A stretch of 64,000 nt of DNA from Acidobacteriota bacterium (GTDB taxonomy: Bacteria; Acidobacteriota; Terriglobia; Terriglobales; Acidobacteriaceae). How positions within the stretch are numbered: position 1 is the first letter of the stretch; every line of letters starts with the position of its first letter. The stretch is taken from assembly GCA_016196065.1 (NCBI GenBank), contig JACPYL010000018.1, positions 62,001 to 126,000 on the forward strand, written 5' to 3'. This document shows positions 2,935-11,591 of the stretch, one piece after another. The position numbers were made by a program, and so were the translations under genes. The notes under the pieces were generated by a model. It saw only the letters and a list, made by a program, of their open reading frames with translations. It was not told the DNA's origin and made no database searches.

Positions 2935-3885
2935 TCAGTCGATGCCGTGAATACGCATGCTCACCAGATCGTCGATGCTGAGGTTCTGCATACCGCGTGA
3001 CTTCATCCCGGCGATGTACTCCGGCGTGACGTTGTGGATGCGCATGGCGATCAATTGATCCGGCTCGGGATGCTTATAGCCGAGCCCTTGTAGCTTGCCG
3101 ATGAACTCGGGCGACACGCCATGAATGCGGAATGCAATGAGTTCTTCAAGGTCCACGTGATCGTAGCCGCACTTCTTCAATTCCTGGACCCACTCCGGAG
3201 TCGCGCCATGGATTCGCATGGCGATCAGCGTGTCTTCGTCAGGAGAGTAACCGGCCTGACGCAGCGTGCGCACCATTTCCGGCGACACGCCGTGAATGCG
3301 GAACGCCACCAGTTTGTCGCTATCGGTGGCGCTGGTCCCAGCCGCGCGTAGAGCTTCGATAAATTCCTTATTCACATTGAAAATCCGGAACGCGACGAGT
3401 TTGTCGCTGTCCAGATCGGAGAGATGTTCCTCTTTCATCTGCCGCGCAAAGTCGAGGCTGACGTCCTGCACTGCCATGCTGTATTGCTGTTCCTCGTCCA
3501 CCGAAAATCCGACCGACTGCATCTGCCGGGCGTAATCGGGATTCGGCTCGAAGTGGAAGTTGCCGGCACCTTCGCCATCCTTGAGATAGCCTTCGCAATC
3601 GATCTTGCCGGCGTCGCGTGTCACGACGAAGTGCACATCCTGGCGCCCGGCTTTCGAGAAATCTACGCCCTGGAACGTGCTCGACGGCCAGTCTGATTCG
3701 TGATTCGAATTTCCGCCGTGATGATGCTCGATCAACGAGAACTCGACCTTGCCGGTCTGGTCAGACTTGTGGATCGTCCAATCGCCGGTCCGCGGACTAT
3801 TCGAGCCTTTGGCGCTCTTTGCAACCACGCCGAAGACAAGACACAAACCGAATACCAGAAATGCCAGCGCTCGCCACACTCTCAT
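2935..3885 (-). CDS. Exported protein with 28-29-residue repeats shared with the adjacent M56 protein
   Basis: The 316-residue product has an N-terminal signal peptide or anchor (hydrophobic residues about 5-22). A beta-rich region of about 100 residues follows, containing 'GKVEFSLIEHHHGG' and 'DVHFVVTRDAGKIDCEGYL'. From about residue 130 to the end it is built of imperfect 28-29-residue repeats of the type D-x-L-I-A-M/F-R-I-H-G-V-S/T-P-E-x-I-x-x-L-x-x-x-G-Y, with anchor leucines near 163, 192, 220, 249, 278 and 307. The same repeat forms the C-terminal domain of the M56 protein encoded 36 bp upstream, so the two very likely act together, perhaps by repeat-repeat contact outside the membrane. 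No enzymatic motif is visible, and the name of the repeat family is not known to me. Confidence 0.75.
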   Translation of the reverse strand: MRVWRALAFLVFGLCLVFGVVAKSAKGSNSPRTGDWTIHKSDQTGKVEFSLIEHHHGGNSNHESDWPSSTFQGVDFSKAGRQDVHFVVTRDAGKIDCEGYLKDGEGAGNFHFEPNPDYARQMQSVGFSVDEEQQYSMAVQDVSLDFARQMKEEHLSDLDSDKLVAFRIFNVNKEFIEALRAAGTSATDSDKLVAFRIHGVSPEMVRTLRQAGYSPDEDTLIAMRIHGATPEWVQELKKCGYDHVDLEELIAFRIHGVSPEFIGKLQGLGYKHPEPDQLIAMRIHNVTPEYIAGMKSRGMQNLSIDDLVSMRIHGID

Positions 3886-3921
3886 GATCGATCTCCTGAA
3901 ATGCGCTTTCAGAACTTGTTG

Positions 3922-5766
3922 CTAGATCTCGCCCGCTTTATCCAGCACGCCGAGTTGCCGGAGTTGAATCAGTTTTTCCATGGTCAGGTTCTGGAAGCCA
4001 TGCTTGCGGGCCCGCTCGATGAACTCGGGCGTCACGCCCTGCACTTTCGCGTCAATCAGTTCATCGACGTCGAACTTGAATCCCGCCGCCTGCAACGCCT
4101 TGATGTATTCCGGCGTTATGCCTTGCACGCGCATGGCGATGATTTCGTCGGCGTTCGGCTTCAAGCCCAGGGCGCGTATTTCACGGACATACTCGGCCGT
4201 CACACCCTGCACCTTCATGCCGATAATCTCGTCGCCACCGGCCTCGATCCCCTCCGCCTTGAGCGCATTCACATATTCCGGAGTGACACTCTGCACTTTC
4301 ATCGCGATGATTTCGTCGGCGTCTGGCTTGAATCCCGCCGCTTGCATGGCCCGGATATATTCCCCATCGATGCCTTGCACTTTCATGGCAATGATTTCGT
4401 CAACCGGCGCGGTCACACCAGTGGCGCGCAGTCCGCGAATATATTCGGGCGTCACTCCCTGGACCTTCATGGCGATAAGATCGTCGACATCCGGATGCAG
4501 GCCCTCCGCTTGAATTTCGCGTATGTAAGGCGCCGTGACACCTTGAATTTTCATCGCAACCAGTTCATCGACGTCCACATCGCCCAATCCGGCTGCCTTG
4601 ATTGAGTCGATGTAGGAACCGGCTGATTCCGGCGTTTCGGGAGTTTCGGGAACTTCTGGCGTCGAGACGCGCGACGCCTTGGCCGGGGCTTTCGGAGCTG
4701 TAACCGCTTTTGGCGGCTGCGGAGCAGCCGGTACGGCTTGTGCGCTCACCTTGCGAGCGATGCCGATGCCAAAAATGGCATTCCCCGCCAGCAGCGCGAC
4801 CGTCAGGCATAACGCGCTCGAAGTCAGTCCGATGCCACGAATTCCAGAACGCAGATTGCCGATCCCGAGCAAGCGCATGATGCGCGCCGATAGCGGACCG
4901 CGGTTCGCAGCCATCGCGAGCGCCGGAGCGACTCGCCACTCTTCCATCATCGTGAGGGCGCGGGCATACTCCAGAGCGTTGCCGCACAGCGCAATCGCAG
5001 CATCATCACAGCAATTCTCGCGCTCCAAGCGAATGCGCCGATTCAACCACCACACCGCCGGGTGATAGAACAACAAAGTCTCAACCACTACCTGGAAAGC
5101 GTTGACGAACGAATCCAGCCGCTTGATATGCGCCAGTTCATGAACGATCACAGCCTGCAGTTGCGCGTCGGAAAGCCCAGTCAGCGCCGTGAGCGGCAGA
5201 AATACGATGGGACGAAACCATCCGATGACAGCCGGTGCGTCGAGCCACTGGCATTGCGCATAACGAATCGCCCGCGTCAGTCCAAGACGGTTCTGCAATT
5301 CAGAACAGATTTCGCTCAGCTCGGTGCTCACCGGGACAGACTGCCTCCGGCGCATCCGTTCCAGCAGAAAGAATCCGCCAGCACTTCGCATACTGAAAAT
5401 CGCGACGCCAATCAGCCACAGTTGCACGACGATCGGGAACAAGTCAGGAGCATTCGAACCGGTCGTTGCGGAGACATGCGCAGGCGCCTTCCACACCGCA
5501 ACCGGCGAGAGTACGGCCGCTGGCGCCGCCGGTGCCGAAGTCGAAACGGCATCTGCGTTGCGGTAGTAGGAAAATGTTGCGACCGGAGCCGCGAACATCA
5601 GCAACAAAGTTGCAACCGCCAACAGGTAGCGCGCCGAAGCTTTGCGGAAGGGCGCCATTGCGACTGCAGCCAGCGCCGCCAACGCTGTTCCCTGCCATAC
5701 GAAATGCAACAGCGCCCATCCTGCGGGCCGCATCACTTCAGGAGATAGCCAGTTCGTCACGGTCAT
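3922..5766 (-). CDS. BlaR1-like M56 family metallopeptidase with C-terminal 28-residue repeats
   Basis: The 614-residue protein resembles the BlaR1/MecR1 sensor-transducers that cleave or inactivate a BlaI-type repressor. Hydrophobic segments lie at about 15-38, 47-66 and 110-135. The zinc-protease motif HELAH is at residues 209-213, with a downstream ERENCCDD segment (about 248-255) supplying the third ligand. A further membrane segment lies at about 313-337. In place of a penicillin-binding sensor domain, the C-terminal part has a Pro/Ala linker. After it come seven exact 28-residue repeats (anchor Leu/Ile at 402, 430, 458, 486, 514, 542 and 570) and one partial repeat. The start overlaps the blaI-like stop by 4 bp, and the next gene carries the same repeat. 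The inducing signal is unknown. Confidence 0.9.
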   Translation of the reverse strand: MTVTNWLSPEVMRPAGWALLHFVWQGTALAALAAVAMAPFRKASARYLLAVATLLLMFAAPVATFSYYRNADAVSTSAPAAPAAVLSPVAVWKAPAHVSATTGSNAPDLFPIVVQLWLIGVAIFSMRSAGGFFLLERMRRRQSVPVSTELSEICSELQNRLGLTRAIRYAQCQWLDAPAVIGWFRPIVFLPLTALTGLSDAQLQAVIVHELAHIKRLDSFVNAFQVVVETLLFYHPAVWWLNRRIRLERENCCDDAAIALCGNALEYARALTMMEEWRVAPALAMAANRGPLSARIMRLLGIGNLRSGIRGIGLTSSALCLTVALLAGNAIFGIGIARKVSAQAVPAAPQPPKAVTAPKAPAKASRVSTPEVPETPETPESAGSYIDSIKAAGLGDVDVDELVAMKIQGVTAPYIREIQAEGLHPDVDDLIAMKVQGVTPEYIRGLRATGVTAPVDEIIAMKVQGIDGEYIRAMQAAGFKPDADEIIAMKVQSVTPEYVNALKAEGIEAGGDEIIGMKVQGVTAEYVREIRALGLKPNADEIIAMRVQGITPEYIKALQAAGFKFDVDELIDAKVQGVTPEFIERARKHGFQNLTMEKLIQLRQLGVLDKAGEI

Positions 5767-6149
5767 CGGCGGTTCCTTTCATGTTCGTTCAGCAGACGGC
5801 GCAATTCCTCGATCTCTTCGCGCGAAGTCTTGGTGCCGGCGAGCGCATGCAGCATCAGTTGGCTTGCGGAGCCTTCAAAAACGCGCTCTAACATATCGCT
5901 AGCCAGTTGGCGCTTAGTCTGCTCGGCGGGCAGGCATGCTTCATAGACGTGCGCACGCTGTGTTTCGTTTCGCCGAACCGTCCCTTTGGCCGTCATTATT
6001 TGCAGAAATTTCAGGACGCTGGTGTATCCAATATCTTTCTTCTCACCAAGCGCATCGTGAACCTCGCGCACGGTGGACGGACCGCGCGTCCACAGCACAC
6101 GCAGGATTTCCAGCTCCGAAGCGGTAGGCTTTTGCGGGGGTTGCTTCAT
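5763..6149 (-). CDS. BlaI/MecI/CopY-family transcriptional repressor
   Basis: From the ATG at 6149 the protein has 128 residues, the normal size for this family. It has an N-terminal winged helix: 'TASELEILRVLWTRGPSTVREV', then 'GYTSVLKFLQIMTAKGTVRR', where YTSVLKFLQ is the recognition helix. The C-terminal helices are those used for dimerisation. A longer reading frame exists upstream, but it runs through the operator and promoter and is rejected as the start. The gene overlaps the M56 gene by 4 bp (ATGA), as in classical blaI-blaR1 pairs. Two tandem dyad operators directly upstream imply autorepression. The -10 element ends about 8 nt before the ATG, so the transcript is probably leaderless. 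Confidence 0.9.
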   Translation of the reverse strand: MKQPPQKPTASELEILRVLWTRGPSTVREVHDALGEKKDIGYTSVLKFLQIMTAKGTVRRNETQRAHVYEACLPAEQTKRQLASDMLERVFEGSASQLMLHALAGTKTSREEIEELRRLLNEHERNRR

Positions 6150-6293: not shown

Positions 6294-6421
6294 ACTTCGT
6301 CCTGCTCGACGCCGTAGCAAGGCATTATCCCCGCGAGCCAAGGGGGCATGGGCCGGAGGGCGCCCCGCGATTAGTTCCGCCCCCGAACATCCTCTGGGTG
6401 TTCGGCACTATAATCACGCCG

Positions 6422-7660
6422 ATGGCCAGCGATCCCTTCCTGTCGTGGGCGAACCGGACCGTGCTACGCCCGGGACGCGACGTGCCGTACCTGAGCATCC
6501 AGGACATCGTAGTTTTCGTTCGCGATCTGGAAGTGAGTAAGCGGTTCTACGTCGACCTGCTGGGTTTCGAACTGGTGACGGACCAGTGTCTTCCCACCGG
6601 CGTCCGTTGGATTGAGGTGGCACCTCCCGACGGCAGCGCCAATCTTGCGCTGGTTGAGCCCAAGCCTGACCGTCCCGAATACAAGCTGATTGGCGGCTAC
6701 CGCTGGGTTCTCTTCATGACAGAAGATGTCCACGCCACGTACAAGGAATGGAGTGAACGCGGGGTTCGATTTTTGTTTGCGCCAGAGACGCCGGGTTGGG
6801 GCGGGACCTATACACGGTTCGAGGATCCAGACGGGAATGCGTTTGGACTCGAAGGGTTCGATGAGGTAAGGCGAAGCCTGGAATTGCAGCGGAAAGAACA
6901 GGCGGAAAAACTCGAAGCCGAACGCCGCGTTGCCCACGAACTGGAAATCGCCCGGCAGGTGCAGGCGCGGTTGTTTCCTCAGATTCAGCCGGAGTTGAAG
7001 ACCGTTGAGTACGCAGGCATTTGCCTGCAGGCGCGGCAGGTCGGAGGGGACTATTTCGATTTCCTGAACCTCGGGACGCAGCGGCTGGGGCTGATCATCG
7101 GCGACGTTTCCGGCAAGGGGATCGCCGCCGCTCTGCTGATGGCGAATCTGCAGGCCAGCCTCCGGAGCCAGTCGGCGCTGGCCTTCGATCAGCCCGAAGC
7201 ATTGCTAAGATCCGTCAATCGCCTGTTCTATGAGAACACCCATGACAGCGCCTACGCCTCGCTTCTGTTTGCCGACTACGACGACGCGACGCGGCGACTG
7301 CGCTACGCCAATTGCGGACATCTGTGTGGCCTCTTGCTGCGAAGCGATGGCAGCATTGAGAAGCTGGGGTCGACCAGCATGTTGCTGGGGCTCTTCGAGG
7401 AATGGGATTGCTGCATGCAGGAGCAAGAACTCTTTCCAGGCGACGTGCTCGCGCTCTACACCGACGGCGTTACCGAAGCCACTAACGATCAAGGAGAAGA
7501 ATTTGGCGAGCGGCTACTGATTGAAGCGCTGCAGCAACATCGGGAATTGTCGTGCCAGGCCTTGCTGGCCGCAATCGTGGACGGCGTTCGGCACTTCGGA
7601 TCTCAGGAACAACAAGACGACATAACGGCAATCGTCGCGAAGTTCAAGGCCAGCGAGTAA
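6422..7660 (+). CDS. VOC (glyoxalase-like) domain fused to SpoIIE-type PP2C phosphatase
   Basis: Starting at the ATG at 6422 the protein has 412 residues. Residues about 24-145 form a vicinal-oxygen-chelate domain ('IQDIVVFVRDLEVSKRFYVD', ending 'TRFEDPDGNAFGLEGF'). Residues about 150-185 are a charged coiled-coil linker. Residues about 195-412 form an RsbU/SpoIIE-like Ser/Thr phosphatase, with metal-binding Asp in VGGDYFDF (D210), in IIGDVSGKG (D228) and in LYTDGVTEA. RsbU-type phosphatases dephosphorylate anti-anti-sigma proteins in partner-switching pathways; the VOC domain probably senses a small molecule or metal. The frame stays open upstream, but that stretch overlaps a repeat, so 6422 is preferred. 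No anti-sigma genes are adjacent. Confidence 0.88.
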   Translation: MASDPFLSWANRTVLRPGRDVPYLSIQDIVVFVRDLEVSKRFYVDLLGFELVTDQCLPTGVRWIEVAPPDGSANLALVEPKPDRPEYKLIGGYRWVLFMTEDVHATYKEWSERGVRFLFAPETPGWGGTYTRFEDPDGNAFGLEGFDEVRRSLELQRKEQAEKLEAERRVAHELEIARQVQARLFPQIQPELKTVEYAGICLQARQVGGDYFDFLNLGTQRLGLIIGDVSGKGIAAALLMANLQASLRSQSALAFDQPEALLRSVNRLFYENTHDSAYASLLFADYDDATRRLRYANCGHLCGLLLRSDGSIEKLGSTSMLLGLFEEWDCCMQEQELFPGDVLALYTDGVTEATNDQGEEFGERLLIEALQQHRELSCQALLAAIVDGVRHFGSQEQQDDITAIVAKFKASE

Positions 7661-7720
7661 CACAACGGAAATGCAGGAAACCGTTGTGGAAGAGCGGGAA
7701 TGTCGAACCGCTATGGAAGA

Positions 7721-7787: not shown

Positions 7788-8105
7788 TCACTCGCGTGGT
7801 AACGGAGGCTCTTCCCCGCGAGGCGTCGGGACAGCATTCCGCTTCGAGTTGCGCCGCATGCAGATGTAGGCACCCGCAGCGCCAAAGATCGGCACAAAAG
7901 CGGCAGCAAGGTGTGCAGAAATCTCTTCATTCCCGCCAAACGCCAGCGGCAGCGCGCCCAACCCAACCCCGACAGCGCACGCTCCGATAATGATGAGAAG
8001 GTTGTAAAGCTTCCACTTCGCCGGCTTGCCTCCAAAAACCGCGATGACGGTGAGCACGATGAACGCCAAGAAAATAAGCGGATTCCCAGAACTGGCATCG
8101 GTCAT
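7788..8105 (-). CDS. Small integral membrane protein, unknown function
   Basis: The 105-residue product is mostly hydrophobic, with three predicted membrane segments (about 9-25, 33-55 and 64-81). A basic, Pro/Glu-rich cytoplasmic tail follows (CMRRNSKRN then PRGEEPPLPRE). I do not recognise the family and see no catalytic motif. Codon use and GC resemble the surrounding chromosome. It is transcribed alone, convergent with the phosphatase gene. Confidence 0.55.
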   Translation of the reverse strand: MTDASSGNPLIFLAFIVLTVIAVFGGKPAKWKLYNLLIIIGACAVGVGLGALPLAFGGNEEISAHLAAAFVPIFGAAGAYICMRRNSKRNAVPTPRGEEPPLPRE

Positions 8106-8358: not shown

Positions 8359-8411
8359 TTGACCATATCTGCCCCTGTGAGTATCGTGGACAGTTCTCAA
8401 ACAGTTCTCAA
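8359..8411 (+). promoter_or_regulatory. Putative promoter with tandem 11-bp repeat at the start site
   Basis: TTGACC (8359-8364), a 17-nt spacer and TATCGT (8382-8387) form a plausible sigma70-type promoter for the nucleotidyltransferase-methyltransferase pair. The 11-mer ACAGTTCTCAA is repeated head to tail at 8390-8400 and 8401-8411, over the expected transcript start, as a control site would be. The remainder of the 326-bp gap (8106-8358) shows no gene; AGCCGGGTGCCCC near 8212 resembles the edge of the hairpin repeat seen at 16335 and 17127. Confidence 0.45.
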
Positions 8412-8431: not shown

Positions 8432-9430
8432 ATGGTTACGGCTAGCCTGTACGATTCTAGAGCTGAATACTCGTTAATCCGACTAGCTGAGCTTCGAAAG
8501 TGCCTTGAGAAGCTTCCGGAAACCAAGGGTTTCCGAGAGCTGACGATTTTTGGTGCGGGTTCCTATGGGCGTCTCGAGGCTAGCAAGTTCTCGGATATCG
8601 ACATCTTCTTCCTTGTGAGTGGTGATGGCACAAACTTAGCAGAGCCACACACGAATGAACTCCGCCTGTTTGGCAAGGTGATTGAAATCGCTGACCAGAT
8701 GAGCTTTCCAAAGTTTTCCAACGACTGTGAATACCTCAAGATTCTGCACACTGACAAGATTCTCGACAATCTGGGCGGAAGGATCGACGACCACGAGAAT
8801 TATTTTACGGCACGCATGTTGTTTCTGCTCGAGAGCCAGTGCCTTTTTGGAGAACAGACATTTAAGGCGATTAGAAGCGAGATCATAAGCTCCTATTTCA
8901 AAGATTTCCCCGACCATCCGCTCACATTTCAGCCCATATTCCTCATGAACGATATCTGTAGATTCTGGAAAACGCTGCTTCTCAATTACGAACACAAGCG
9001 GAAAGTTGGCGGTGGAGCGGAAGGTGAGCTGAAGAAGACCAAGCAAAAGGTAAGAAACTTCAAGCTTAAGTTTAGTCGTTTGACAACCTGTTTTGCGTCC
9101 ATTGCAGCCCTTGGAAGTTTTGCAGCTCCAGTAACCGAGGAGGATGTTATTGCAATTACGGCGATGACGCCGAGGGAACGACTGCAGTCCGTGGTTGGGC
9201 GGGTACCAACCGCAAAATCAATCGTTGATGAGGTATTGGACAGCTACGAGTGGTTTCTTAAAATGACCGGACTACCGACCGAGGAGTTGGAAGGTCACTT
9301 TTCCGATAAGGCCAAGAGAACAGAAATGTTCAAACGGGCTAACGAATACGGAGATTCGATGTTCCGCCTCTTACGTCTTGTTGACGATTCGGACTCGCGC
9401 CTCAGGCTTTTGAGGACGCTGGTTGTCTAA
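8432..9430 (+). CDS. DNA polymerase beta-like nucleotidyltransferase, methyltransferase-associated
   Basis: The 332-residue protein carries a classical nucleotidyltransferase motif, GAGSYGRLEASKFSDIDIF (residues 41-59), with GS and the metal-binding Asp pair D55/D57. The rest is largely helical, including 'LMNDICRFWKTLLLNYEHKRK' and a basic 'KKTKQKVRNFKLKFSRL' segment reminiscent of the helical C-terminal part of GlnD/DUF294-like enzymes. It could transfer a nucleotide onto protein or RNA or make a small nucleotide; the substrate is unknown. The start has a GGGAG site 8 nt upstream. The gene is visibly AT-richer than its neighbours, and its stop is one base from the ATG of the methyltransferase, indicating a co-transferred, coupled pair. 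Confidence 0.75.
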   Translation: MVTASLYDSRAEYSLIRLAELRKCLEKLPETKGFRELTIFGAGSYGRLEASKFSDIDIFFLVSGDGTNLAEPHTNELRLFGKVIEIADQMSFPKFSNDCEYLKILHTDKILDNLGGRIDDHENYFTARMLFLLESQCLFGEQTFKAIRSEIISSYFKDFPDHPLTFQPIFLMNDICRFWKTLLLNYEHKRKVGGGAEGELKKTKQKVRNFKLKFSRLTTCFASIAALGSFAAPVTEEDVIAITAMTPRERLQSVVGRVPTAKSIVDEVLDSYEWFLKMTGLPTEELEGHFSDKAKRTEMFKRANEYGDSMFRLLRLVDDSDSRLRLLRTLVV

Positions 9431-9431
9431 C

Positions 9432-11591
9432 ATGCCCCGCGTTTCGTTGCTACCAATCGATGACGGAATTGTCAGTCCCCACCTGCAACTCCTCAGGCAG
9501 GTATGCGAGCCATCCTCGACGTCAACGCCACATGTGACTGTCCGGTATTTTGAACGGCTCCGAGTCCCCGATGAATACGGCCTAATCCGGGTTACCCATA
9601 TTGATTTGATCGAGCCCGGCATGTTCGCGCTCAAAACCAACCGTTTAGATTACTCGGGCGGAGGGGGGAATCAGACCGTATTCATTAGGTGCAAGTCAGA
9701 CGATTTGGCGCGGCTTGAGCACAAGCCCCACTTTCCTGGCAGTGATTTCCACATCACTATTTATGACGGTACGTCCAAAGCATTTGGCCAAAGCCTGCTC
9801 GGCGAACTGCAGCGATTCAAATGGGGTGTCCGCGTCCCGCTGTCGGGCAAAGTTGGTCTAACAGTCAAGGAACTCAAGAACTCAAATCGGCGCGCCACCA
9901 GGCCGGAGCCCGTATACGACCCTGTTACTAAACAACTGTTTTGGACCATCACGGGGCATGATTTGTCTTGGTCGTACATGGCGGGGCTCCAGGACGGAGA
10001 ACGTCTGGCGTTGTGTAGGGCAATCCTTAAGAGCTTATTCCGCGAGACGCGCCACTATGAACGGGTCTCGCCACGGAAGAAAAAGTTTCAGAATGGCACA
10101 GTCAGCGACTCGGCAATTCCGAGACTTCCAGCGGTCCACTTGACGCCGCCAGAGCTTGCTCGTGAAATCGCCGGTTATGCGGTTAGCCAAATTGAGAATG
10201 ATGATGAGCCAATTGATTTTGGCGACCCGGCGGTTGGTACCGGCGCGTTCTACGGGGCCCTCCTACAACTGCTTCCCCCTAAAAGAATAGCCTCCGCGAT
10301 TGGAGTGGATATTAACCGTGAGCAGGTCGCCGCCGCGCAATGGCGGTGGGCGGATAAAGGTATGGAGGTGCTGAACGGGGATTATCTTCATATGGATCGT
10401 TTACCGCCACGAAACCTTGTTTTGGCGAATCCGCCGTACCTACGACACCAATCCATCCCTCGGAAGTATAAAAGTCGACTGCTAGAGCGCGCTTCAATCC
10501 GGACTGACATTCGAGTGAGTGCCCGATCTGGTCTGTACGTTTATTTCTTGCTCTTGGCTCACGATTGGATGAGCGAGGGTGGAGTTGCGGCATGGCTGAT
10601 CCCGAGCGAATTCATGCGGTCAATCTATGGTTCTGCCGTGCGTCAATACCTTACGCAGAAGGTAGAACTTCTTCGTGTGCATGTATACGGACAAACTGCG
10701 CCTCAATTCGAGAACGTGGAAGTATTGCCGGCTATCGTCGTCTTCCGAAATCGAAAGCCAAAACCGGAGCACACTGTCCTAATGACTGCGGGTGGAGATC
10801 TCAGGACCCCTGAAACCCAGGAGTTCGTTACCGTCAAGGACCTCGGATGTTCTCGGACGTGGAATGTGCCACTACGTCGCAAGAAAGAGGAAAGCGGTCA
10901 GTTCCGGATAGGGGATCTTTTTATCGTTCGAAGAGGTATAGCGACTGGGGCGAACGACTTCTTTGTCGTGACCAGGGAGCACGCAAAGTCGCTTGGTATT
11001 CCCGGGTTTTCGCTAAAGCCCTTGCTCCCGAAGGTGAAGGCGCTCGGAACAGATATTGTCGAAGCTGAATCAGATGGGTATCCGAAGGTATCGCCTCAAC
11101 TATGTGTTATTGACTGCGACTTGCCCGAAACTGCAATTCGAAAGCGGTATCCCAGGTTAATGGCATACCTGAATACCGCAAAAAATCTCGGGCTTTTGAA
11201 GCGCCGATTGCTCGCGGACCGGAATCCTTGGTACAAACAGGAACACCGAGACCCACCGATATTCCTATGCACCTACATGGGCCGAGGAAGTCATGGCAAG
11301 CCGCCGCTTCGCTTCATCTGGAACAGATCTCAGGCAATCGCCACGAATACCTACCTACTGTTATACCCTCGCCCGTCCTTAGCGGAAATGCTATCGCGGG
11401 ATCCAACTGCCGCATCACGCGTGTTCGCAATGCTCCAACAAACTGCTGAGGTCGGCTTTCGTGAGTATGGGAGAGTGCACGCAGGGGGACTAGTCAAAAT
11501 CGAACCCCGAGAACTGTTGGAAGTGCGTTTAGAGGTCCCTTCAAGCTTGGCGATTGATGCAATCACCGATCAGCAAGAATTTTTCAGATGA
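9432..11591 (+). CDS. Type II (Eco57I-like) N6-adenine DNA methyltransferase with N-terminal 2H-phosphoesterase-like domain
   Basis: From ATG 9432 the protein has 719 residues (TTG 9423 is an alternative). SAM-binding motif I is DPAVGTGAF (about 265-273) and the catalytic motif is NPPY (about 333-336), followed by LRHQSIPRKYKSR, typical of Eco57I/TaqI-type adenine methyltransferases. A target-recognition-like region begins at 'FRIGDLFIVRRGIATGANDFF'. The first 130 residues contain two H-x-T motifs, PHVTVRYF (H34) and FHITIYDG (H107), 73 residues apart, with the 'IEPGMFAL' and 'TVFIRCKSDDLARL' strands between them. This is the layout of 2H phosphoesterases (LigT/2'-5' RNA ligase superfamily). 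No nuclease PD-ExK motif was noticed and no restriction gene follows. It likely methylates DNA; the 2H domain is inference. Confidence 0.82.
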   Translation: MPRVSLLPIDDGIVSPHLQLLRQVCEPSSTSTPHVTVRYFERLRVPDEYGLIRVTHIDLIEPGMFALKTNRLDYSGGGGNQTVFIRCKSDDLARLEHKPHFPGSDFHITIYDGTSKAFGQSLLGELQRFKWGVRVPLSGKVGLTVKELKNSNRRATRPEPVYDPVTKQLFWTITGHDLSWSYMAGLQDGERLALCRAILKSLFRETRHYERVSPRKKKFQNGTVSDSAIPRLPAVHLTPPELAREIAGYAVSQIENDDEPIDFGDPAVGTGAFYGALLQLLPPKRIASAIGVDINREQVAAAQWRWADKGMEVLNGDYLHMDRLPPRNLVLANPPYLRHQSIPRKYKSRLLERASIRTDIRVSARSGLYVYFLLLAHDWMSEGGVAAWLIPSEFMRSIYGSAVRQYLTQKVELLRVHVYGQTAPQFENVEVLPAIVVFRNRKPKPEHTVLMTAGGDLRTPETQEFVTVKDLGCSRTWNVPLRRKKEESGQFRIGDLFIVRRGIATGANDFFVVTREHAKSLGIPGFSLKPLLPKVKALGTDIVEAESDGYPKVSPQLCVIDCDLPETAIRKRYPRLMAYLNTAKNLGLLKRRLLADRNPWYKQEHRDPPIFLCTYMGRGSHGKPPLRFIWNRSQAIATNTYLLLYPRPSLAEMLSRDPTAASRVFAMLQQTAEVGFREYGRVHAGGLVKIEPRELLEVRLEVPSSLAIDAITDQQEFFR

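Follow-up and report, generated by a model that had tools for sequence, protein, structure and literature searches.

A 64,000-nucleotide stretch from an Acidobacteriota bacterium (GenBank assembly GCA_016196065.1, contig JACPYL010000018.1, positions 62,001 to 126,000 of the forward strand), here called the window, carries two adjoining genes that encode a Pol-beta nucleotidyltransferase (NTase) of the PDC-M70A family and a protein in which a 2H phosphoesterase-like domain is fused to an M.XamI-type adenine DNA methyltransferase (MTase). The reading that we favor, with a probability of about 0.4, is that the pair constitutes a horizontally acquired two-gene conflict module, either anti-phage or toxin-antitoxin, in which the NTase would restrain the 2H-MTase protein. 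What the two enzymes do, which way control runs, what the MTase contributes and any part in defense are inferred. Observed directly are the gene order, the conserved motifs, a second, distant sequence with the same pair and the same fusion, the pairing of enzymes by clade and the existence of phage-borne relatives. The NTase family is already known as a candidate, and it is the type of partner that is new here.

Organization of the gene pair

The NTase gene (8432-9430, plus strand, 332 amino acids) closes with a stop codon at 9428-9430, and the ATG of the fusion gene stands at 9432, one base past it, as the first-pass annotation of this DNA had described. The second gene extends on the same strand to 11591, encoding 719 amino acids from that ATG, with an alternative TTG in its frame at 9423. 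Its product comprises the 2H-like N-terminal domain (9432-9880; about residues 1-150, the end being approximate), a stretch that is weakly conserved in the alignment with a counterpart on viral contig L081 (9881-10136), and the M.XamI-type adenine DNA MTase with its C-terminal target-recognition region (10137-11591). The motifs on which the annotation had relied are found in the translations where it placed them, namely D55 (8594-8596) and D57 (8600-8602) in the NTase, PHVTV and FHITI with H34 (9531-9533) and H107 (9750-9752) in the 2H-like domain, and DPAVGTGAF (10224-10250) and NPPY (10428-10439) in the MTase. Both genes are also AT-richer than their flanks, as it had noted, with a GC content of 48.2% in the NTase gene, 54.5% in the N-terminal domain plus linker and 52.7% in the MTase part, against 58.8-61.0% in five flanking genes and 57.5% across the window; this difference fits horizontal transfer.

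A nucleotidyltransferase with a predicted GlnE/DrrA-like fold

Residues 14-321 of the NTase match the PADLOC model PDC-M70A (E-value 2e-24), and its matches to Pfam NTase models all score under their cut-offs. The site reads G43-x11-D55-x-D57, and G43, S44, D55 and D57 are invariant in a 12-row alignment. An AlphaFold model made from five sequences (predicted local distance difference test score, pLDDT, 72.2; predicted template modeling score 0.77) matched the GlnE adenylylation domain at Z 15.2, DrrA at 15.0 and the GlnE N-terminal domain at 14.6, over 256-275 residues and at 10-11% identity, on a scale where helical models reach high Z more easily (13-14 in helical examples) and the first clearly unrelated row for the NTase appears at 7.8. 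MNT antitoxins reached Z values up to 9.2, and HalB 6.0. Foldseek ranked DrrA first (8.2e-4, the only match below 0.001) and GlnE second (1.8e-2). On this moderate-confidence model, the predicted fold resembles those of GlnE and DrrA, and the resemblance leans towards the covalent modification of a protein. No CBASS (cyclic oligonucleotide-based antiphage signaling system) model appeared among the PADLOC matches and no SMODS match in Pfam, an absence that does not by itself exclude CBASS.

The 2H-like N-terminal domain

The N-terminal domain of the fusion carries two HxT motifs, PHVTV (H34/T36) and FHITI (H107/T109). Its residues H34, T36, R38, H107, I108, Y111 and G113 are invariant in the corresponding domains of the window, L081, L049 and L047, the last two being loci of two genomes of the same phylum, in which the NTase is followed by a stand-alone 2H protein. 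Because this invariance spans proteins with 18-27% identity to the window domain, the motifs are more than a chance occurrence. A direct match to the Pfam 2H family PF22547 stayed below the cut-off (E-value 0.011 with the domain, 0.19 with the whole protein). When the window and L081 domains were compared by hhalign with the stand-alone proteins of L049 and L047, the two sets aligned with a probability of 93.7 (E-value 1.9e-7) and with both histidine motifs in register. With 38.4 bits, the L049 protein exceeds the cut-off of 27 for PF13563, the 2'-5' RNA ligase superfamily, and that of L047 falls under it (17.3). The assignment of the domain as 2H phosphoesterase-like is supported by these profile comparisons, the homology being indirect, through L049 and L047. 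Sequence searches of the PDB with the 2H alignment or the L049 2H protein gave no useful match.

A methyltransferase of the XamI family with no endonuclease found beside it

Residues 238-690 of the fusion match the PADLOC model MTase_II PDLC03328 (E-value 3.9e-101) and Pfam Eco57I (6.9e-9), with motif I (DPAVGTGAF, residues 265-273) and motif IV (NPPY, 333-336) intact. The motif X region reads AVHLTPP in the window and AIYVTPP in L081, and GQF[AS]TP in the other nine enzymes of the clade. Between the window and L081 MTases, the target-recognition region is the best kept of the three parts (52% identity), the catalytic part standing at 40%. A 13-row MTase tree joins the two fusions as a pair of sisters (98/99); the composition of the L081 sequence was flagged as unusual.

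Eleven MTase relatives were viewed, ten of them from the 103 matching plasmid records and one being locus L002, and a XamI endonuclease adjoins nine of these (seven annotated as such, two recognized by Pfam, in L002 and L009). Beside the MTases of L122 and L123 no endonuclease was seen, the L123 record starting on the upstream side of its MTase. Around the window pair, a restriction endonuclease was found neither in the pair nor in the adjacent genes scanned, nor by PADLOC among ten further window proteins, in agreement with the earlier statement that no restriction gene is present. A whole-genome search with PF09572 (RE_XamI) also gave no match, but the control genomes were silent too, which makes this absence weak; the same model does match the endonuclease beside three related MTases. 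The proposed distinction from classical restriction-modification agrees with this missing endonuclease, even though the MTase half itself comes from the XamI restriction-modification family.

Recurrence of the pair and of the fusion

On viral contig L081, an NTase gene is followed 20 base pairs (bp) downstream by a gene for a 755-residue protein that aligns with window residues 1-700 at 35% identity (E-value 1e-144), so that this contig holds the NTase together with the same 2H-MTase fusion. Of 396 genomes searched in the phylum, the N-terminal domain alignment matched 3, and in each of these the NTase gene immediately precedes the match. The two genes do occur together elsewhere, a point on which the first-pass annotation had made its proposal depend, as the fusion pair in L081 and the NTase with a stand-alone 2H protein in L047 and L049 show. 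Relatives of the N-terminal domain were absent from plasmids and, when a single protein served as query, from 395 of those 396 genomes. Scans of viral contigs, made once with the 2H alignment and once with that of the fusion, returned the L081 contig again and no second one. The fusion is rare in the sequences searched, which past the window's phylum consisted of plasmids and viral contigs.

Genes for a BglII-type endonuclease and an MT-A70 methyltransferase near the L081 pair, and for a CI/S24 phage repressor right behind it, lie at 3837-5137 and 9172-9894 of this contig. The same contig encodes a DUF4231-like protein with two transmembrane segments 19 bp ahead of the NTase (5379-5885; E-value 2e-4, 22.1 bits against a cut-off of 24.7), a possible membrane effector.

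One NTase family with exchangeable hydrolase partners

To place the pair in its family, we assembled a census of 51 NTase loci, made up of the window, an NTase fragment from its own genome, 9 loci from a search of the phylum, 32 from a search of the class, and all four plasmid and all four viral matches. Outside it stand 21 of the 31 matching genomes of the phylum search (best E-value 1.7e-6 or weaker), genome G483 and a second place in G426; some census loci, such as L041 and L042, are closely related and do not count as independent. In 50 of the 51 loci a hydrolase gene lies on the same strand within 900 bp of the NTase, the exception, L050, being a contig-end fragment. The partner is a TIM barrel of the PDC-M70B type in 33 loci (decayed in one, L046), a DEDDh exonuclease in 10, a 2H-MTase in two, a stand-alone 2H protein in two (one also with a 5'-nucleotidase), an HD protein in two (one also with a histidine phosphatase) and a histidine phosphatase alone in one. 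The profiles for the rarer partners were made from the loci themselves, so that such labels partly match by construction.

Independent models recognize examples of the partner classes. The L005 TIM barrel reaches 31.2 bits in Pfam (cut-off 31.1), and that of L041, which has no such Pfam match, scores 5.5e-104 with PADLOC PDC-M70B; the TIM-barrel partners as a whole are placed by family only (AP_endonuc_2). The L082 exonuclease passes PF16473 (31.2 bits, cut-off 27), with L048 and L087 just below, and it also matches a PADLOC effector model (1.1e-37). Outside support exists as well for example HD, histidine phosphatase, NT5C and 2H partners. In L004, from Escherichia coli, the HD protein crosses the start of the record, and the remaining 157-residue piece has no Pfam match, its HD label resting on the RefSeq name and a census profile match (6e-15). 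The census profile left unflagged two genes annotated as 5'-nucleotidases ahead of the L005 NTase. As judged from sequence families, with the TIM barrels assigned by family only, the exchanged part is a phosphate-ester hydrolase wherever a partner was seen, and the NTase is the constant one.

The pairing follows the NTase phylogeny. On a tree of 47 rows, from which those shorter than 200 residues (L046, L114, L115, L116) were left out and in which HD and histidine phosphatase partners were pooled, four partner changes suffice, the minimum possible, against a mean of 15.2 for shuffled labels. The NTases of TIM barrels (100/98), exonucleases (98/93) and stand-alone 2H proteins (100/98) form well-supported groups, and the two fusion-type NTases a weaker one (84/71 in this tree, 97/67 in the analysis behind the test of a single origin). 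The fusion-type pair groups with the exonuclease-type NTases (91/82), in a tree where false joining of the long branches (window, L081, L047, L007) is a risk. A single origin of the 2H pairing, stand-alone and fused, was not rejected (p-AU 0.118). One NTase lineage thus combines with several hydrolases that are unrelated to one another and keeps to its partner type clade by clade, which yields a testable prediction for the whole class of candidate defense systems formed by PDC-M70 and its relatives.

The four NTase relatives on viral contigs, which an alignment scan brought out where a viral-contig protein scan and a phage-record search with a single NTase had found no match, sit with phage genes (CI/S24 repressor, integrase, TerL, Zot). 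Taken with its relatives, the window pair looks like a member of a wider group of paired enzymes resembling defense or toxin-antitoxin modules.

Several loci stand out by their layout. In L100 (3591-5390) the NTase and a PDC-M70B-type TIM barrel form one chain of 599 residues. In L046 (G286:C21, 3317-6091) a decayed NTase is accompanied by a TIM-barrel gene that continues in frame into adenine-methyltransferase-like sequence with an NPPY motif; this part matches the window MTase weakly (2e-7) and represents a second, apparently broken, join of partner and methyltransferase. L084, on a viral contig with a Zot-type gene, combines HD, NTase and histidine phosphatase. The 4.5-kb E. coli plasmid pISHS7_5 (L004/L140) carries an annotated HD-domain gene with a PDC-M70A NTase in a Clover-like layout, and was found at high DNA identity in 1 of 5426 E. 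coli genomes. The window's own genome holds a second NTase fragment (L050, G000:C4, 11-1951) of the exonuclease-type clade, beside an ISAzo13-type transposase.

Comparison with described systems

Among the nearest counterparts is the PADLOC phage-defense candidate PDC-M70, with which the window pair shares the PDC-M70A NTase, the two-gene unit and the adjacent hydrolase. In PDC-M70 this hydrolase is the TIM barrel PDC-M70B, whereas the window partner is a 2H-MTase, its NTase lies outside the TIM clade, and no TIM-barrel match was found on the same strand within 900 bp. The term PDC-M70 did not occur in the literature searched, nor did the pairing of a 2H or 2H-MTase protein with an NTase or a mechanism for PDC-M70 and its relatives. 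The earlier designation of the pair as an undescribed system is accordingly apt for the combination, which appears in none of that literature, and has to be narrowed for the NTase, whose family already figures in PADLOC with another partner.

Clover likewise consists of two genes, a Pol-beta NTase and a phosphate-ester hydrolase, the NTase being proposed to hold the hydrolase in check. It is a tested precedent, in which the CloB nucleotide p3diT suppresses the CloA dGTPase and inactivation of CloB makes the operon toxic (PMC12265719). Its hydrolase is the HD dGTPase CloA, whereas that of the window is a 2H-MTase, and no HD protein was found in or beside the window pair. In HepT/MntA, the HEPN/MNT type, an NTase adjoins a nuclease-like protein and is proposed to silence it by AMPylation, the toxin being reported to be adenylylated by the NTase (PMC7641770). 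The window NTase is larger and GlnE/DrrA-like in its predicted fold, with MNT proteins at Z 9.2 at best, and Pfam gave no HEPN match in the pair or in the genes next to it. With XamI type II restriction-modification, whose recognition site is GTCGAC, the pair shares the M.XamI-family half, differing in that no endonuclease stands beside it, an extra 2H-like N-terminus is present and an NTase occupies the neighboring place. GlnE and DrrA adenylyltransferases share with the predicted NTase a whole-chain similarity and the G-x11-D-x-D motif, at the low identity given above and in a genomic context unrelated to that of the pair.

Proposed mechanism and alternatives

In the mechanism that we favor, the GlnE/DrrA-like NTase would hold the neighboring hydrolase in an inactive state. 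The likeliest way would be transfer of a nucleotide onto that protein, the route that MntA takes with HepT; the alternative would be synthesis of an inhibitory nucleotide, the route of CloB with CloA. The effector would be a 2H phosphoesterase tethered to the M.XamI-type adenine MTase, which would bring it to DNA and mark or recognize particular sites; DNA placement or self-marking is most plausibly what the MTase half provides. The 2H domain would be released upon infection or once the NTase product is lost, and would then act on RNA ends or nucleotides. If it works in this way, the fusion, which two distant sequences retain, would tie DNA methylation to immunity based on nucleotides or RNA and not to DNA cutting. 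The hydrolase beside the NTase in 50 of 51 loci, the sorting of partners on the NTase tree, the single chain of L100, the phage genes around the viral relatives, the endonuclease and methyltransferase near the L081 pair and the effector match of the L082 exonuclease all speak for a conflict module. We favor such restraint given the Clover and HepT/MntA precedents and an NTase fold that leans towards protein modification. The first-pass annotation had supposed that one protein makes or attaches a nucleotide and the other removes it; restraint is at least as likely, because the partner hydrolases are varied and Clover offers a precedent.

Several points weigh against restraint of a 2H-MTase effector. 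L081 is the sole other complete fusion seen, and a scan of genome contigs with the whole fusion protein, which reaches close relatives only, returned only L002, an MTase without the 2H domain. The AlphaFold model of the 2H-like domain (two sequences, pLDDT 32.6) was unusable, so the 2H identity first read from the HxT motifs stands on sequence profiles and not on the fold. The ten other window proteins scanned (between 1262 and 30964) lack any PADLOC defense match, and the literature searched held no activity, toxicity or phage test of the pair or of PDC-M70A. The phosphoesterase chemistry of most partners would equally suit an eraser, and the histidine-phosphatase and 5'-nucleotidase neighbors could serve nucleotide or other metabolism, L007 for instance lying among glycosyltransferase and transporter genes.

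An eraser belongs to a scheme, second in rank and possible but doubtful in our estimate, in which the NTase nucleotidylylates a third target, a protein or an RNA 3' end, and the 2H domain takes the nucleotide off. The HD domain of GlnD, which removes uridine monophosphate, is a precedent for such a writer and eraser, phosphodiesterase-like proteins make up many of the partners, L004 and L084 have HD proteins in that place, and the NTase fold is GlnE-like; the same bond would, however, have to be erased by all of the unrelated folds, and histidine phosphatases and 5'-nucleotidases normally cut phosphomonoesters. Quite unlikely, to our mind, is a diffusible signal, an (oligo)nucleotide made by the NTase and degraded by the 2H domain, with a third gene such as a two-transmembrane effector as executor. 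Clover and Hailong set precedents for it and the DUF4231-like protein ahead of the L081 NTase, though under the cut-off, would suit that role, but the window showed no effector of this kind, and there the nearby gene for a protein with three transmembrane segments (7788-8105) is divergent and has a homologue in the stretch read of genome G761 that stands apart from any NTase; HalB, moreover, resembles the NTase model far less closely (Z 6.0).

RNA ends are common substrates of 2H and DEDDh enzymes, and the L049 2H protein passes the cut-off of the 2'-5' RNA ligase superfamily, so one might picture repair, with the 2H domain healing cyclic-phosphate ends and the NTase adding nucleotides to tRNA cut by a toxin or a phage. 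This is very unlikely in our view, since the pair shows no ligase, the fusion to a DNA methyltransferase would be unexpected, and, among the structures listed, AMPylators lie nearer to the NTase fold than CCA-adding enzymes do. The slimmest chance goes to phage counter-defense cargo, in which the MTase would shield DNA against restriction of the XamI type while the 2H domain would degrade immune nucleotides like Acb1, which has a 2H phosphoesterase fold (PMC10419184). The phage repressor beside the L081 pair and the orphan state of the M.XamI-type enzyme speak for it; the window pair, however, lies between ordinary host genes, and the NTase and the tight pairing would be left unexplained.

An extension of the restraint mechanism, rather unlikely as it stands, would be a type IIG-like single chain in which the 2H domain replaces the nuclease. 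The M.XamI-type part would read site methylation and the GlnE/DrrA-like NTase would license or silence the 2H domain, so that the DNA methylation state would control an RNA- or nucleotide-targeting immunity; more widely, one NTase lineage would act as a general restraint on many unrelated hydrolase effectors.

Genomic surroundings of the pair

A Pfam scan of the adjacent genes identified a SpoIIE-like protein, the small protein with three transmembrane segments, on the opposite strand, and a sigma factor and kinase, and these flanking genes are ordinary host genes. The three-transmembrane gene was left out of the module because its homologue in G761, a genome of the same genus, stands without an NTase. 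In the stretch read of genome G766, the SpoIIE-like gene (6405-7664) was the sole match to the window, and the NTase had no match there, in a check that had no positive control; a clean empty site was not found in the stretches read of G766 and G761.

Upstream of the NTase start, on the plus strand, a sigma-70-like promoter match (8359-8387, 9 of 12 positions) is no more than expected by chance, with 2 such matches in the region against 2.3 expected. Between this site and the NTase start, two perfect tandem copies of the 11-bp direct repeat ACAGTTCTCAA occupy 8390-8411 (plus strand) and form a putative operator. Elsewhere in the window, a large open reading frame on the minus strand (3922-5766) has a C-terminal half in which a DEIIAMKVQGVTPEYI-type motif is repeated in succession.

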